From an uncultured Chloroflexales bacterium (GTDB lineage: Bacteria > Chloroflexota > Chloroflexia > Chloroflexales > Chloroflexaceae): a stretch of 37,107 nt of DNA. Below the pieces are notes generated by a model. The model searched no databases, had not been told where the DNA came from, and saw nothing but the letters and a program-made list of their open reading frames with translations. The stretch covers positions 1 to 37,107 of the forward strand of contig CAKZSI010000085.1 of the NCBI GenBank assembly GCA_937918935.1, given 5' to 3'. Of this stretch, positions 14,226 through 23,351 are shown in pieces. The translations under genes were made by a program, and so were the position numbers. Position 1 is the stretch's first letter. Each line of letters starts with the position of its first letter.

Positions 14226-15668
14226 TCACCGTGCCGCTGCGCCTATGGTCACCAGCAGCGTTGGGCGGGCCACGGCATTCCAGTCGCCCGTGTCCGAGGT
14301 CACAAAGTACTTGCCGCTGTGGTAGGCGCTGTCTGCCGAGTAGAGGGCCAGACGCAGCGGCGTGCGCGCGGCATGCGCCTCGGCCACGGCGCGCGTTACA
14401 TCGATCTCGCGCGGCACCCCCGGCCAGCCCGAGAAGGTCGCCAGTGGTTCAACCCATCCCGCCCCGACGTTCTCCGTCGCCAGCGGCGCGTTGTTCCAGT
14501 TCGTAGTCCGCTCGTTCCAGTCGGCGCCAACGGTGAGCGCCTGGATCAGCGACGGTCGCGCCTGGCTCGGCTCGGAATTGCCGAACTGATGCAGGACCAG
14601 CCTGGCCGAGACGATCGCCTGACCCGACGGCAACTGGTCGAGGGGGAACGTCACGTAATACCTGGCGAAACACGGCCAGTCGGCAATATCCGATTGATTC
14701 TGGACGTTGAAATCGCCTTTACCGGCATCTCGCGTCGAAACGCCCCACTCACTCCAGAAATCAAGCCCGTCGCCACAGACTGCCCCCCCGCCTACATTCA
14801 CGTCGGGGACGACGGCCCCATTCAGGCCCTGGCGGATCGTAATTGTCTGCGACGATGCCACCGCCGGAGGAGTGTAGCCGGGGAGACCGAACCTGAGCGT
14901 ACCCCACGTGGACGGCGCCTGGAGATCCGCCGCTGGCGGCCAGAATTGATCCGGAATGGGGGTTCCGGCCCGGTCATCTCGGTCGTGAACCGCCAGCGCC
15001 ATTCGCCACAGGGTGCCATCGTTCGGCCGTCCACTGAGACCAAGACTACTGAAGGGCACGCGGAAGGTCATTACCCAGCCGCGATCGTCGGTTTCGTCAT
15101 TCATCCATTCCCCGCGCCAGCCTGGACGGGTAGTAAAAGCCGTAGTGGCAGGGACCCAGGCGCCTCCGCTCGCACGGTATGCGGCCTGGTACTGCGCGCC
15201 GCCATCGCCGCTAAACTGGGCCACGAAGCGATGGCTGCTGGCGCTTGCCGTTGCACCATTGGCGGTATCGAGGTACAGCGTTACAGCGTCCCAGGCGCTC
15301 AAATCAGCGCGCTCCGGGGTGGTGTCGTACCACAGCCGGCGGTCAAAGACCGCTACGTACACGTACAGTTCCGTGTCGTTGTACCCCAGACGGACGTCGG
15401 CGTAATTCTGGGTCGGGGTCACCGCGCCAAACCAGAAGATGGCCAGTTCCGAGAAGCGCTCGTCAATGTCGGCAACGGCAAAGTAGGGTGCGTTGACCCG
15501 CAACCCGCCCGCCGGAGCGGGAGCACCAGAATTACTGCCCGGTGGCCCGACCACCACGGGTAGATACACTGTGGTAGGCGCCGTGAGCGGCGCCGCAACA
15601 ACGGTCATGATGGCAACGAAAGTGAAAAGCAGTCCGACAACCATCGGACCAGGTCCAGATGGGCGCAT
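14226..15668 (-). CDS. Secreted protein with CBM9-like sugar-binding and DNRLRE-like domains
   Basis: A 480-aa exported protein. The start at 15668 is supported by AGGAGGTG 5 nt upstream and by the signal peptide MVVGLLFTFVAIMTVVAAPL (9-28). Right after it comes TTVYLPVVV, a motif shared with other surface proteins in this window. The first domain (about 55-260) resembles the CBM9/DOMON-type domain (DIDERFSELAIFWFG, DVRLGYNDTELYVYVAVFDR, WDAVTLYLDTANG). The second (about 285-480) resembles DNRLRE beta-sandwich modules (ARLVLHQFG, WNERTTNWNNAP, RPTLLVTIGA). It probably binds glycans at the cell surface or in the matrix. Domain calls rest on remembered motifs. Confidence 0.8.
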   Translation of the reverse strand: MRPSGPGPMVVGLLFTFVAIMTVVAAPLTAPTTVYLPVVVGPPGSNSGAPAPAGGLRVNAPYFAVADIDERFSELAIFWFGAVTPTQNYADVRLGYNDTELYVYVAVFDRRLWYDTTPERADLSAWDAVTLYLDTANGATASASSHRFVAQFSGDGGAQYQAAYRASGGAWVPATTAFTTRPGWRGEWMNDETDDRGWVMTFRVPFSSLGLSGRPNDGTLWRMALAVHDRDDRAGTPIPDQFWPPAADLQAPSTWGTLRFGLPGYTPPAVASSQTITIRQGLNGAVVPDVNVGGGAVCGDGLDFWSEWGVSTRDAGKGDFNVQNQSDIADWPCFARYYVTFPLDQLPSGQAIVSARLVLHQFGNSEPSQARPSLIQALTVGADWNERTTNWNNAPLATENVGAGWVEPLATFSGWPGVPREIDVTRAVAEAHAARTPLRLALYSADSAYHSGKYFVTSDTGDWNAVARPTLLVTIGAAAR

Positions 15669-16043
15669 GGACACCTCCTGGGACTGGCTGGCTCCCGGCG
15701 ATGACGTCCCTATGTCACCTCGGCAGAGCCAACTGTTCCGTGCTGGCAGCGTGGCGTCGGGGAGGCGCGCGTCCGTGGTCTTCAGACCGAGAGCGACGAT
15801 GGCTGATCCGTGGTCTTCAGACAAAGAGCAGCGACAGCGAGAATGTGAGGCGCGCACCTCCACGATCGCCCCGCTGGTATGGACCATACCAACCCCAGTC
15901 TGCCAGACGATGGCGCCCGCGGCAATCGGCCAAAGGTCCTCTTTTAACTAATTTTATACTATTACGCCCCGTTACGGGGCCGGCACATTGCCGGCAGCTT
16001 CTGCCGAACCCTCCCGCTGGTGTCGCGCACATTGGGTGAGCTA
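15669..16043. other. Intergenic region with direct repeats, a palindromic operator and a hairpin
   Basis: No gene is seen. CCGTGGTCTTCAGAC occurs twice, at 15773-15787 and 15808-15822. A perfect 17-bp palindrome lies at 15875-15891. An AT-rich patch (about 15945-15965) could hold the minus-strand promoter. GCCCCG-TTA-CGGGGC (15966-15980) next to GCCGGC-ACATT-GCCGGC (15979-15995) may terminate the SulP transcript. Confidence 0.6.
15875..15891. promoter_or_regulatory. Perfect palindrome TGGTATGGACCATACCA, probable operator
   Basis: Eight-base arms flank one central A. The TGGTAT...ATACCA layout is typical of GntR-type regulator sites. It lies about 205 bp upstream of the start of the secreted CBM9-like gene (minus strand, 15668). 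No regulator gene is in the window. Confidence 0.55.
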
Positions 16044-17714: not shown

Positions 17715-18009
17715 GTGCGCTCCTCTCCTCCAGATGCTGCCATTCCCGAAATACCTCATATATATCACGAATTATAAATCGTATAATAGCATAAAACTAG
17801 CACCCCTTGATATGAGATTCCTGGACCAACGGCATATCCAGCCTGGCGTCCTGCACCTGTGGCGGTAATCAATGGCGGGTTCACCCTGTTACCATTCGGC
17901 TACTCTTGTAACGCTGGCATCATACGCTCACCGTCCGTGGCGCTCACGCCCCTCACTTCGCGGTGCCATGCCGTTCGCCGCGCCCCGGGCGCCAGCGTGT
18001 ACCCTCTAA

Positions 18010-18300
18010 GGACGGCGTGCGACCGAGGGCGGCGAGCCGCGCTCGCTCGCGCCCGTGCCAGCGGGCTGCAGCTTCATCGTAGGGCAGCACCGGGATGGTC
18101 GCGCCGACCACCTGGTTCAAGTAGTTCATAATCCGATCGCGCCGGGTTGAGGATGGCAGTCTTTCACAGCCATACCAGAGCTCATGCCAGACGACGGCGG
18201 CGATCGCGACCTCGCTCTGGTATTGGCGCAAGCGGTCCAGAGTGTTCGGGGCAGGTTGCGGGCGCAGGGGCTCAGAGATGACACAGGTCGCGCTGACACC
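18010..18300 (-). pseudogene. VapC-type PIN-domain toxin remnant
   Basis: Reading the minus strand gives CVISEPLRPQP, then LDRLRQYQSEVAIAAVVWHE, LWYGCERLPSSTRRDRI, IPVLPYDEAAARWHGRERAR and LAALGRTPS. This is the clear middle of a VapC ribonuclease of a type II toxin-antitoxin pair. The N-terminus is ruined: the catalytic Asp expected in LLDTCVISEP is replaced (SATCVISEP), an in-frame stop lies at about 18316, and a perfect hairpin sits there. After TPS the expected FADGQIAAIA and the last 35 or so residues are missing. No antitoxin gene is seen. Confidence 0.82.
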
Positions 18301-18430: not shown

Positions 18431-18524
18431 CGAGAGCGCGTGGGAGTCGAACCCACCGGCGAGGCTCGTCACCCCGCCCACAGGTTTTGAAGACCAGGGC
18501 AGCCACCGGGCCACTTCCGCTCTC
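18431..18524 (-). tRNA. selC: tRNA-Sec (selenocysteine, anticodon TCA)
   Basis: A 94-nt tRNA with the selC architecture. Acceptor GAGAGCGG (18517-18524) pairs with GCGCTCTC (18432-18439) except its last pair. The 6-bp D stem GTGGCC-CGGT-GGCTGC is typical of tRNA-Sec. The anticodon loop is CTTCAAA with anticodon TCA (reads UGA). The long extra arm is GGCGGGG-TGACGAG-CCTCGCC and the T arm GTGGG-TTCGACT-CCCAC. The anticodon stem CTGGT/ACCTG has one T-T mismatch. CCA is not encoded. It would insert selenocysteine at UGA with SelA/SelB, none of which are in the window. The mismatches and decayed surroundings leave some doubt about activity. Confidence 0.87.
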
Positions 18525-18614
18525 GCCGCGATTCTAGCCCCGGGCCGGGCCCGCTGTCAAACCGGCCGCGCGGAGCAGCGGGGCTGGCCCGGGGTTCGTG
18601 GGGAACGCCCCGGA

Positions 18615-18941
18615 CCCCCCGAAAAACCAGATCGTGACCGTACCGGCAGACACTCCCGAAGGCGCGTATATTGTTACCGTGTATAACCCCGACGATGGCG
18701 CCAGCTACCAGCCTGGCCCCGCCGGGCTGACCGTTGTGCATCCTGGCGACCTGGGAATGCGCGGCTGGGCGGCAACCACGCCGCTGCCCGGTGGGCGCAG
18801 CGGCTTCACCGCGATTGCAACAGCAGGATCAGTGTATGTGATCGGGGTGGCACTCCCTTCCCCGACGATCAGCCGGTGGAGTTCAGCGGTTCGGCGTTGC
18901 CGCCCCGGCTGTACATGCCGCTGATCGGGCGCGACTGGTAG
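18615..18941 (+). pseudogene. Fragment of a secreted Kelch-repeat protein, frameshifted
   Basis: The first part reads IVTVPADTPEGAYIVTVYNP (Ig/IPT-like) then GWAATTPLPGGRSGFTAIAT and GSVYVIG, a Kelch blade start. A frame change follows, after which the other frame reads GTPFPDDQPVEFSGSALPPR and LYMPLIGRDW to TAG 18939-18941. There is no start codon or signal peptide, and most blades are missing, so this is an internal-deletion remnant. The terminal LYMPLI motif resembles the one in other surface proteins here. Confidence 0.75.
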
Positions 18942-19085: not shown

Positions 19086-19694
19086 TTACGGTGACGGTGG
19101 GCCCTCCTCGGGCGTGTCCGTCTCCCACTGGACACGCTGGACGCGCGGCGGTCGCTCCAGGCGTTCGGCGCCCGTGGCCATGCGCCGTACAACCCGTAGC
19201 GTGTCGCCGAGGAAGCGTTGCCCGTCACGAATGGGGAAGGCGAAGCGCAACGGGCCCACTTTTGCCGCCACGTTGAGCACATTGTTCGGAAAGAGCGCGA
19301 TCTGGTCGCTTACATCACTGATGACCGCCGTGAGCAGCGCCTGGGCGTTCTCGGTGACGGTGGTGCCGGGCGGCGGCATGAGCACGTTGAGCGTCAACTG
19401 GCGCGCTATCTCGATGTGGCTCTGCACGCGGATCTCGCCCTCGCCGCGGATGATGGCCTGGCAGGCCAGGCGTTGCCCATCGGCCAGGCGCGCCTCGGAG
19501 AGCCAGGCGCGCTCGATCTCGCTGGGCGGGCTGAGGTGTTCGCTCCCGGCAAGCACCTGGCAGCGACATGCCTGGCAGGTGCCGATATTGTCGCACAGGA
19601 ATCCGATATGGGCGGCGTTACGCCGGCCAACGTTCAGCAGACGCTCACCTACCTTGGCCTCCATCGCCACGTCGTTCATGATCACCGTAGGCAC
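19086..19694 (-). CDS. 2Fe-2S ferredoxin-like protein with C-terminal extension
   Basis: A 202-aa protein. GTG at 19694 is used, with AAGGAG 5 nt upstream. The N-terminal 90 residues are an adrenodoxin-type ferredoxin: Cys34-x5-Cys40-x2-Cys43 and Cys78 would bind a 2Fe-2S cluster (CDNIGTCQACRC, then LACQA); Cys45 is extra. Residues 95-180 are not ferredoxin: LLTAVISDVSDQIALFPNNV and LRFAFPIRDGQRFLGDTLRV look helical and fairly hydrophobic. Ferredoxin-plus-tail proteins include the chlorosome envelope proteins CsmI/J/X of green sulfur bacteria; whether this is a Chloroflexota counterpart is a guess. It is probably an electron carrier held in a complex or at a membrane. Confidence 0.82.
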   Translation of the reverse strand: MPTVIMNDVAMEAKVGERLLNVGRRNAAHIGFLCDNIGTCQACRCQVLAGSEHLSPPSEIERAWLSEARLADGQRLACQAIIRGEGEIRVQSHIEIARQLTLNVLMPPPGTTVTENAQALLTAVISDVSDQIALFPNNVLNVAAKVGPLRFAFPIRDGQRFLGDTLRVVRRMATGAERLERPPRVQRVQWETDTPEEGPPSP

Positions 19695-19823: not shown

Positions 19824-19855
19824 GGGCGGGGGGAAACCAGGTTTCCCCCCCGCCC
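19824..19855 (-). terminator. Long GC hairpin at the end of the aldolase gene (family A)
   Basis: GGGCGGGGGGAAACC (19824-19838) pairs with GGTTTCCCCCCCGCCC (19840-19855) with one bulged C. It abuts the stop codon of the minus-strand aldolase, a terminator position, but no U-run follows. Palindromic core GGGAAACCAGGTTTCCC as in family A. Confidence 0.55.
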
Positions 19856-20874
19856 TACACCACTTCGATCTGTTCCAGGCCGCCATAGATGGCCCACCAC
19901 GGGCTGGCGCCCCGGGCAACAACCTGGTTAAGCATCTGCAGATTACGCGCGCCGCGGTCCTCGAGCCAGGCTTCGAGGGCCGCCAGGCCCTTTTGCCCGT
20001 AGACGGGCAGGCTCTCTTGCCAGGTGGCGCGGCCGCAAAGCAGGCCGGCGAACGGCACGTCTGATTCGCCGGCCAGTTCGAGGGTTTCGATCAACACTTC
20101 AATGCGCATGCCGGCGCTGAGGTAGATGAAGGGCTTGCGGGCCACGCTGGCGGCCTGGCGGAACAACGCCAGGGCTTCCTCGCGGTCGTAGGCTTTTTCG
20201 CCGCGGAAGGCGCGCATACCCTCCACGTACTGCGCGAGCACCGGCACTTCCACCATCAGCACGTCAACCCGGTACTGGGGCTTCGAGAACTCCTCCATCG
20301 CCGCGCTGACGTAGCGCGGCTTGACGTGGGCAAATTCCACCGAGCGGATGTCCATGCGGTCATCGTAGGCGATCGGTTCGAGAAAAAGGGCGATATCGCT
20401 CGCGGCGCACTCGGCCCCCACACGTTCGACGAACACGTGCTTGCACTCGTTGATCCGCGGGTCGTCGAAGGGATTGTAGTAGAGCAGGAGCTTGATCGCG
20501 TTCGCCCCGGCCTCCTTCAAGCGACGCACGTTCCACAGATCGAGCAGCGCAGGCAGGCGGCCACGGGCGTTTATATCGTAGCCGCTCTTCTCGTAGGCGA
20601 GCAGCACACCCGTATCGGGTGCACGCTGCTCAAGGGCCGGCAGTCCGTACTCCGGATCCATCAGAATTGCGCTGGAGTAGCGCGACAGAATGCGCGTGAC
20701 CGCGATCTTGAATTCCGTCAACGCGCCATCGTCAACCTGCCGGTCATGGACCCGCGCAATCGCGTTTTTCAGCGAACCGCGTTGATCCATCGCCGCGGCG
20801 GCAATCACGCCACGCTCGTCGGCACAGGCCTGAATCCCCTCGAACTTTCCCCGCGTCATGGTCATTCTGGCCAT
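19855..20874 (-). CDS. lacD: Tagatose-1,6-bisphosphate aldolase-like (LacD family) class I aldolase
   Basis: A 339-aa TIM-barrel aldolase. LacD enzymes cleave tagatose-1,6-bisphosphate and usually also fructose-1,6-bisphosphate to dihydroxyacetone phosphate and glyceraldehyde-3-phosphate. AAAMDQRGSLKNAI (26-39), ILMDPEYGLPAL (70-81), GANAIKLLLYYNP (123-135, Schiff-base Lys128), ALFLEPIAYD and FIYLSAGM are family features. AAGGTGG lies just before ATG 20874. There are no lactose or tagatose genes nearby, so here it more likely serves as a glycolytic or gluconeogenic aldolase. Physiological substrate is inferred. Confidence 0.88.
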   Translation of the reverse strand: MARMTMTRGKFEGIQACADERGVIAAAAMDQRGSLKNAIARVHDRQVDDGALTEFKIAVTRILSRYSSAILMDPEYGLPALEQRAPDTGVLLAYEKSGYDINARGRLPALLDLWNVRRLKEAGANAIKLLLYYNPFDDPRINECKHVFVERVGAECAASDIALFLEPIAYDDRMDIRSVEFAHVKPRYVSAAMEEFSKPQYRVDVLMVEVPVLAQYVEGMRAFRGEKAYDREEALALFRQAASVARKPFIYLSAGMRIEVLIETLELAGESDVPFAGLLCGRATWQESLPVYGQKGLAALEAWLEDRGARNLQMLNQVVARGASPWWAIYGGLEQIEVV

Positions 20875-21515: not shown

Positions 21516-21608
21516 CCGTTGGGGGAAATGTCGCCCGGCGCCGGAGCTTGCCGCGCACAGGCGCGTTTCCCCGCTTCAAAAGTGCATGCTAGCACGAGGA
21601 GGTGCCTG

Positions 21609-23351
21609 ATGGAGAAGCCCTGGCTTTCTTCCTACGAAAAGGACGTACCCCCGACGCTCACCTATCCGAACCAGACCCTCAGCGAAATGCTGCTCACTGC
21701 AGCGCGGACCTACCCCGACAAAACGGCCACCAACTTTGTCCTCAAGTATATGCTCGGCGGTCGCTATACCGTTGGCGGGCGGTTGACCTACAAGCAACTG
21801 AATGAACTGGTCGATCGCATGGCGACGGCCCTCTACCAGCTCGGGGTGCGCAAAGGCGAACGGGTGGCGATCATGCTGCCGAATTCGCCCCAGTATATTA
21901 TCGCCTTCTTCGCCGCCATGCGCATCGGCGCGATTGTGGTTAATGTCAACCCTACCTACACCAGCCGCGAGTTGCAGTTCCAACTCAGCGATGCTGGTGC
22001 CGAGACGATCATTCTGCTCAATCTGTTCTGGCCGCGCTTGCAGGAGGTACGCTCCGAGACGCCGTTGAAGCGTGTGATTGTCGCGTATATTTTTGACACT
22101 CTGGGCTTCCCCTCGAACTTCCTGGTCCGCAGCGCCCAGAAGCGCACCCCCGAGTGGGTGGACGTGCTGCCCGAGCAGGATACGTTCTTCTTCCAGCATC
22201 TTCTGGAGAAGTATGGCCCCACCCCGCCCAGAGTGACGGTGGATCCCGGCGATACTGCCCTCTTCCAGTACACCGGTGGCACCACCGGCGTGCCCAAGGC
22301 GGCTATGCTCACCCATCGCAATCTGATCGCCAATGTGCTCCAGGTCAATGCCTGGCTGCCCAGCGGGCGCCCCGGCGGCGAGAAGATGATGGCCGCCATT
22401 CCGTTTTTCCACGTCTACGGCATGACCGTGGCGATGCTCTACTCGATCTATCTGGGATCGGAAATCATCATTGTGCCCAACCCGCGCCCGATTGACAATG
22501 TGATGACCGTGATGCAGAAGGAACGGGCGACGCTCTACCCCGGCGTGCCGGCGATGTACATTGGCATTGTCAACCACAAGGATGTCGCCAAATACGACTT
22601 GCATAGCATCAAAGCCTGCATCTCCGGCTCAGCGCCGCTGCCCATGGAAATCCAGGAGCGCTTTGGCCAGATTACCGGCGGGCGCCTGGTAGAGGGCTTC
22701 GGTATGACCGAAGCCAGCCCCGTCACCCACTGCAACCCCGTCTTCGGCAAGCGCAAGTCGGGCAGCATCGGCGTGCCTCTGCCTGATACTGAGGCTAAGA
22801 TCGTCGATCTGGAGACCGGCGAGTCCCTGCCCTTCGATGGCGAAACCCAGGGCGAGCTGTGCGTTCGCGGGCCGCAGGTGATGAAGGGCTACTGGAACCG
22901 CCCCGATGAAACGGCGGCGACCATCGACGCCGAGGGCTGGCTGCATACCGGCGATATTTGCAAGGTCGATCCCGAGGGCTACTTCTTCGTTGTGGACCGC
23001 AAGAAGGATATGATCAATGTCTCGGGCTTCAAGGTGCTGCCCCGCGACGTGGAAGAGGTCTTGTTCATGCACCCCAAGGTGCTCGAAGCGGTGGTGGCGG
23101 GTATCCCTCACCCGACCCGCGGCGACGATACGGTGAAGGCCTATATCGTGCCCAAACCTGGTGAAAACCCGACTGTTGAGGAGATCAAGGAGTTCTGCAA
23201 GCTGCACCTGGCGCCCTACAAGGTGCCGCGTGAGGTGGAGTTCCGCACCGAATTGCCCAAGACCATGGTTGGCAAGGTGCTGCGGCGCCAGTTGGTGGAA
23301 GAAGAGAAGGCTAAACAGGCCGCCGCAAGCACCGCCACTGCGGCGGTCTGA
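21609..23351 (+). CDS. fadD: Long-chain fatty-acid--CoA ligase
   Basis: A 580-aa ANL-superfamily enzyme that activates fatty acids to acyl-CoA through an acyl-AMP. The start at 21609 is fixed by GAGGAGGTG just upstream. The AMP-binding P-loop is YTGGTTGVPKAAMLTHRN. Further motifs are VEGFGMTEASPVTH (A5), WLHTGDI (A7), FVVDRKKDMINVSGFKVLPR (hinge/A8) and PKTMVGKVLRR with the catalytic lysine near residue 556. The full length is normal for FadD. It may serve beta-oxidation or lipid remodelling; only the small membrane protein upstream is linked to it. Confidence 0.94.
   Translation: MEKPWLSSYEKDVPPTLTYPNQTLSEMLLTAARTYPDKTATNFVLKYMLGGRYTVGGRLTYKQLNELVDRMATALYQLGVRKGERVAIMLPNSPQYIIAFFAAMRIGAIVVNVNPTYTSRELQFQLSDAGAETIILLNLFWPRLQEVRSETPLKRVIVAYIFDTLGFPSNFLVRSAQKRTPEWVDVLPEQDTFFFQHLLEKYGPTPPRVTVDPGDTALFQYTGGTTGVPKAAMLTHRNLIANVLQVNAWLPSGRPGGEKMMAAIPFFHVYGMTVAMLYSIYLGSEIIIVPNPRPIDNVMTVMQKERATLYPGVPAMYIGIVNHKDVAKYDLHSIKACISGSAPLPMEIQERFGQITGGRLVEGFGMTEASPVTHCNPVFGKRKSGSIGVPLPDTEAKIVDLETGESLPFDGETQGELCVRGPQVMKGYWNRPDETAATIDAEGWLHTGDICKVDPEGYFFVVDRKKDMINVSGFKVLPRDVEEVLFMHPKVLEAVVAGIPHPTRGDDTVKAYIVPKPGENPTVEEIKEFCKLHLAPYKVPREVEFRTELPKTMVGKVLRRQLVEEEKAKQAAASTATAAV

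Follow-up and report, generated by a model that had tools for sequence, protein, structure and literature searches.

The question raised by this locus is whether a gene for selenocysteine tRNA (selC), which lies between what look like decayed genes, is still in use or has become a relic. It was found in the window, by which we mean the whole stretch of 37,107 nucleotides analysed here, from an uncultured Chloroflexales bacterium of the family Chloroflexaceae. The host genome, labelled G000, has a size of 4.60 Mb in 85 contigs and is 99.99% complete, with the window on contig C85. A first-pass annotation, made from the letters alone, had read the minus strand as a selC tRNA and had hinted at a dying gene because of two imperfect pairs and the decay around it. 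Based on the partner genes, a conserved target gene, the promoter motif and a comparison with relatives, it is very probable that this is an active, vertically inherited selC.

Identity and structure of the selC gene

ARAGORN typed the gene as tRNA-SeC (tca) (Table 1), and Infernal matched the bacterial tRNA-Sec model RF01852 to 18432-18524 on the same strand with 68.4 bits (E 4.3e-12), against a gathering score of 47. The fold proposed in the first-pass annotation, and the covariance check that it had suggested, were therefore both borne out. The two acceptor strands (5' to 3', GAGAGCGG vs GCGCTCTC) form seven pairs followed by a G.G at pair 8, and the D stem has six pairs with a 4-nt CGGT loop. 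At pair 2 of the anticodon stem (CTGGT/ACCTG) there is a U.U, and this stem carries the loop CTTCAAA (CUUCAAA in the RNA), while the extra arm has seven pairs and the T stem five. The anticodon loop, D stem and extra arm were thus as first described, and both of the imperfect pairs pointed out at that time are real. G1 and the discriminator G73 are both there, the latter being called important for tRNA-Sec in an excerpt of PMC5330540, and CCA is not encoded. The acceptor and T stack has 13 positions, made up of 12 formed pairs and the one G.G, within the 12-13 pairs of a bacterial tRNA-Sec. The selC gene is intact.

A long-arm tRNA-Ser or tRNA-Leu can be misread as tRNA-Sec, and RF01852 did weakly match other tRNAs of this genome. 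There were 12 matches in the whole genome at E up to 0.001, and eight of the 11 others were typed by ARAGORN as tRNA-Ser (four), tRNA-Leu (two), tRNA-Cys and tRNA-Trp, two of these eight being read inside a neighbour's locus; the remaining three were the weakest, at 32.2 bits or less. The second-best match, a tRNA-Ser, scored 49.7 bits, which is above the gathering score and 18.7 bits under selC. With this difference in score, the TCA anticodon, the 6-bp D stem with its 4-nt loop, and the co-occurrence of selA in 31 of the 33 family genomes with selC, the chance of such a misreading is negligible. One selC was found in the genome.

To judge the two imperfect pairs, 49 selC genes were parsed, that of the window and those of 48 out of 119 relatives searched, the latter being partly the best-scoring ones. 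Acceptor pair 8 was mismatched, mostly as G.G, in 36 of 47 genes including the window's (21 of the 29 from the family, 15 of the 18 from elsewhere), with G017 and G115 left out of this count as they were misparsed, the ARAGORN start being two bases off. The pair was C-G in all seven parsed genomes of genus g9. The U.U in the anticodon stem was seen in 6 of the 49, which are all five members of the window's genus and G016. As both are common to relatives, they are inherited features and no fresh damage. The idea of a dying gene on account of the mismatches was therefore rejected, since relatives with selA have the same ones.

Table 1. Features at and around selC. Coordinates are those of the window, except in the last two rows, where they are those of the loci named.
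Feature	Position	Strand	Remark
selC, tRNA-Sec(UCA)	18431..18524	-	ARAGORN and Infernal; sole tRNA-Sec found in genome
-10 element TAGAAT, selC promoter	18531..18536	-	6 nt ahead of tRNA
-35 element TTGACA, selC promoter	18555..18560	-	motif kept in 30/33 family selC
Possible vapC (PIN) remnant	17953..18231	-	selC 3' side; E 0.12, weak
Kelch/TIG remnant, part 1	18631..18846	+	residues 224-294 of G002 frame
Kelch/TIG remnant, part 2	18858..18935	+	residues 556-581 of G002 frame, other frame than part 1
2Fe-2S ferredoxin-like gene	19086..19694	-	begins selC 5' flank common to G002, G003, G004
DeoC/LacD aldolase-like gene	19855..20874	-	shared 5' flank
AMP-binding ligase	21519..23351	+	shared 5' flank
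Serine recombinase, locus L176	9086-10783	-	reaches to 12 nt from selC 3' end
Serine recombinase, locus L181	3715-5391	+	reaches to 12 nt from selC 3' end

Selenocysteine machinery in the genome and the family

The first-pass annotation had remarked that no selA or selB lies near selC, and profile searches for the two gave no match on contig C85. They are located on other contigs: selA on C28 (558.9 bits, cut-off 267.9; 460-aa ORF) and selB on C4 (345.7 bits with in-frame neighbours, cut-off 242.25; 623-aa ORF). A selD gene was also found (376.6 bits, cut-off 125; 347-aa ORF), and NCBIfam agreed. The genome-wide search for these genes had been suggested as a way to recognise a relic, and with all three present as full ORFs the relic reading fails on this point.

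In two family genomes with selC, G038 and G017, no selA, no selB above the cut-off and no selD (E up to 1e-40) was found. In G038, a single contig of 4,684,931 bases, the selC is full length with 70.9 bits (locus L081, 5000-5093, minus) and is an orphan. Therefore, an intact-looking selC alone is no proof of use. The absences are less certain in G017, as this genome is 93% complete and in about 320 contigs. In 8 of the 41 family genomes nothing scored like a selC, the best E being 3.8e-8 or weaker. Four of these (G010, G018, G021 and G028) have none of selA, selB above the cut-off or selD, and the other four (G006, G014, G032 and G037), which are drafts in many contigs, yet have some of the three.

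Two further genomes showed incomplete sets. In G024, selA, selB and selC are there and selD was not found. In G048, which is called 100% complete, selA scores 534 bits and a TGA lies within an Rdx gene (L171), but the best RF01852 match had an E of only 1.3e-6; the selC search across the 119 relatives used stricter filters. G048 may have a variant tRNA-Sec or one that was missed.

A conserved in-frame TGA in a Prx-like gene

Nine AhpC/TSA matches were found in the genome, of which one has a TGA inside and the other eight no stop. The former, a Prx-like gene (C31:74176-74763, minus), is a 196-codon ORF with one TGA (...SDRFF-U-PHCAPQL...), placed at the catalytic (peroxidatic) position FF-U-PHC, residue 82. 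Relatives of its product in named records come from Chloroflexaceae bacterium, Chloroflexi bacterium, Chloroploca and Chloroflexus. The gene was detected in 28 of 41 family genomes (searched at E up to 1e-20), and the in-frame TGA is kept in 27 of these 28, four of the 27 showing one further stop in the aligned stretch and the gene of G020 being in two pieces. The exception is G038, where the sole form is a Cys one (VFCPNC) with no TGA. Among the 31 family genomes that carry selC together with selA, six gave no Prx-like match (G008, G013, G025, G027, G035 and G039), therefore this gene is neither the universal nor the only target in the family. In G024, a Sec copy and a Cys copy of the gene lie in tandem (L106 / L119), and the Cys copy resembles that of G038.

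The 27 sequences after the TGA align without gaps, and RNAalifold gave one hairpin, 12 nt past the codon. Its pair 21-29 is G-C in 12, C-G in 8 and unpaired in 6 of the 26 distinct rows, and the covariation score was reached by none of 500 shuffles and by no slid structure. Two of the five hairpin measures (the number of pairs with double changes and that of further pair types) were equalled by 485 of the 500 shuffles, five of the seven pairs are invariant, one pair bears all the covariation, and the sequences are related. Folded as a single sequence, the stretch after the TGA of G000 shows no gain in stability over shuffles (z 0.30 to 0.81). The search for UGA-containing selenoproteins that the first-pass annotation had advised thus yielded an in-frame TGA with a downstream hairpin and one covarying pair, and the Prx-like gene likely provides the genome with at least one selenoprotein.

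SelD and other selenoprotein families

A selD gene was found in 31 of the 41 family genomes and has a TGA inside in 30 of them (in G013 the gene is in two pieces); G000 is the one without. At the aligned residue, the codon in G000 is TGC (Cys; L133, 531-533) vs TGA in 19 of 19 relatives aligned out of these 30, the TGC being that of one assembly. The hairpin after the selD codon differs as well: the Pro codon in its apical loop is CCG in all 17 of the 19 relatives with Pro there and CCA in G000. RNAalifold gave this hairpin a helix of five pairs, in which there is one double change, and its use as independent proof was rejected as the covariation support is weak. With SelD in the Cys form, the dependence on Sec has shrunk in this genome.

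A Sec-containing formate dehydrogenase was ruled out as a target in G000, as none of the 11 Fdh-alpha matching pieces in the genome has a stop inside. A SelW-like target was ruled out by the lack of any Rdx match across the five genus members; Rdx genes with TGA do occur elsewhere in the order. These searches covered four selenoprotein families, and a further selenoprotein is possible.

The tRNA-Sec could be active in a genome that is early in the loss of the Sec trait, with SelD now Cys and one selenoprotein left, which is compatible with a working selC. The change from the TGA kept by nearly all family selD genes to TGC, the stop-free Fdh-alpha pieces and remaining AhpC/TSA matches, and the missing Rdx/SelW gene would all agree with this. 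However, the result is bounded by the four families covered and by the single assembly behind the TGC. Moreover, Cys forms of SelD are common among prokaryotes according to an excerpt of PMC4561486, and three Sec-to-Cys events in SelD are counted in Table 1 of PMC1794560, therefore the SelD change need not mean trait loss. We regard early loss as a tentative reading, somewhat less probable than its opposite.

According to part of PMC1794560, FdhA or SelD was in every selenoproteome known in 2006. The Prx-like protein may keep the Sec trait here against that generalisation, to which later exceptions are possibly in print. A stronger version would be that the whole Sec apparatus is kept for the Prx-like selenoprotein alone, SelD having gone from Sec to Cys together with the loop change from CCG to CCA, and with no Sec formate dehydrogenase. 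It would break the 2006 rule and, with G038 and G017, the family would show the trait being lost step by step; we give this version just under an even chance.

The neighbourhood of selC

The decayed genes reported on both sides of selC were of unequal standing. For the Kelch gene, the congener G002 has an open TIG/Kelch frame of 581 codons, which opens right beside selC, and the window retains two pieces of it that are out of frame with each other (Table 1), so the gene is dead as described. For the vapC gene on the other side the reading is plausible and the match is weak, with the PIN domain below the Pfam cut-off.

The 5' flank of selC is syntenic in three of the four congeners (G002, G003 and G004). 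In the fourth, G001, 5 kb are available on this side and the match to the window stops about 40 bases past the tRNA. On the 3' side, no match was found in 2.6 to 5 kb of G002, G003 and G004, apart from about 145 bases in G003. Further along the window, a 553-aa ORF (14226-15887, minus) has a CBM96 match and a CBM9 match below the cut-off.

In four relatives (G016, G029, G022 and G007), a serine recombinase gene comes as close as 12 nt to the selC 3' end. It has 566 residues in G016, and in G007 the contig stops within it; both genomes tested (G016 and G022) showed its Resolvase and zinc ribbon domains. Where the frame was read (G016, G007 and G009), it runs on into the antisense of the tRNA. 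Partial copies are present in G020, G026 and G009, the last one being truncated by the end of its contig. Altogether, 7 of 31 family selC loci carry the recombinase or pieces of it, some of the others being short of 3' flank, such as the 112 bases in G001. In G001, G004 and G038, similarity that extends past the 3' end of the tRNA suggests remnants, and the window has no match there.

Repeats of the selC 3' end were rejected as attachment sites, as none of at least 13 nt was found in the 31 loci, several of which are short; the window likewise has no second match to this end with up to 3 mismatches allowed. Judging from the position of the recombinase, the selC 3' end seems to serve as an integration site in the family, and integration there in relatives may explain the decayed surroundings. 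The decayed genes beside selC in the window would then most likely be ordinary turnover next to a tRNA gene.

The selC promoter and the case for an active gene

Directly upstream of selC is a near-consensus promoter, TTGACA-18-TAGAAT. In 30 of the 33 family selC genes the motif has TTGAC(A/G), 17-18 bases and TA(C/G)(A/C)AT at the same place, while in the 11 genomes inspected there is variation in the spacers and in the DNA farther upstream. In G038 the -10 element is GACAAT, vs TACAAT in its near relatives G036 and G039, and G017 has TTGCCA-16-CTCAAT ahead of a selC that scores only 55.1 bits. These two exceptions are the only 2 of the 33 family selC genomes without selA. In the third, G019, no promoter was recognisable at this spot, though selA, selB and a TGA Prx gene are present, which counts against a strict rule tying promoter to trait.

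A relic, in which the tRNA persists and Sec is no longer inserted, would be consistent with the two non-standard pairs, the decayed neighbour, the SelD that is already Cys and the full-length selC that G038 has without its partners. However, the partner genes lost in G038 and G017 are full ORFs in G000, the TGA gene is conserved, the promoter motif altered in those two genomes is intact, and the mismatches are common to relatives, so by comparison the stems are not damaged. This makes a relic very improbable, and the earlier hint of a dying gene is not supported by the same observations. With selA, selB, selD, the conserved TGA gene with its hairpin, the promoter motif and the shared mismatches, the selC of the window is most likely active, as far as genome comparison can indicate.

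In an active system, RNA polymerase would start at the adjacent promoter and the tRNA-Sec would be charged with serine, which SelA would convert using selenophosphate from SelD. SelB would then deliver the Sec-tRNA to UGA codons that have a hairpin after them. G000 has at least one such target, at the putative catalytic residue of the Prx-like (AhpC/TSA) protein. The decayed neighbours would represent turnover next to a tRNA gene, as integration in relatives seems to take place at its 3' end.

Comparison with known systems

The selC of the window resembles bacterial tRNA-Sec (RF01852) in the UCA anticodon, 6-bp D stem, long extra arm, G1, G73, 13-position acceptor/T stack and single copy, and differs in the G.G at acceptor pair 8, which leaves 12 formed pairs. 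In the 12-bp stacks described in part of PMC5330540 there are 7 residues between the T stem and G73, whereas this gene has 8.

The Prx-like gene of G000 is similar to Prx-like/AhpC-TSA selenoproteins, being AhpC/TSA by Pfam with the Sec codon at the peroxidatic position in U-P-x-C. Unlike these, it stays under all NCBIfam cut-offs, the best being SelL_rel_redox with 34.7 of 120 bits.

In enterobacteria, selC is an integration site of tyrosine-recombinase islands. The recombinase gene abutting the selC 3' end in Chloroflexaceae relatives is comparable to this, but the enzyme is a serine recombinase with a frame that runs into selC antisense in the three genomes read, and the window is without a recombinase.

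The use of Sec in Chloroflexi was already reported in 2006, with 3 families and 3 selenoproteins in Table 2 of PMC1794560. Within the open-licence literature, no paper on selenocysteine with Chloroflexaceae or with Chloroflexus aggregans was found. The window therefore most probably holds an ordinary, working selC in a phylum already known for the trait, and its value is comparative. One family includes full users, a user with a Cys SelD, and two genomes that retain selC with an altered promoter and in which none of selA, selB and selD was detected. As this range extends from full users to an orphan selC, the order in which the Sec trait is lost can be tested.
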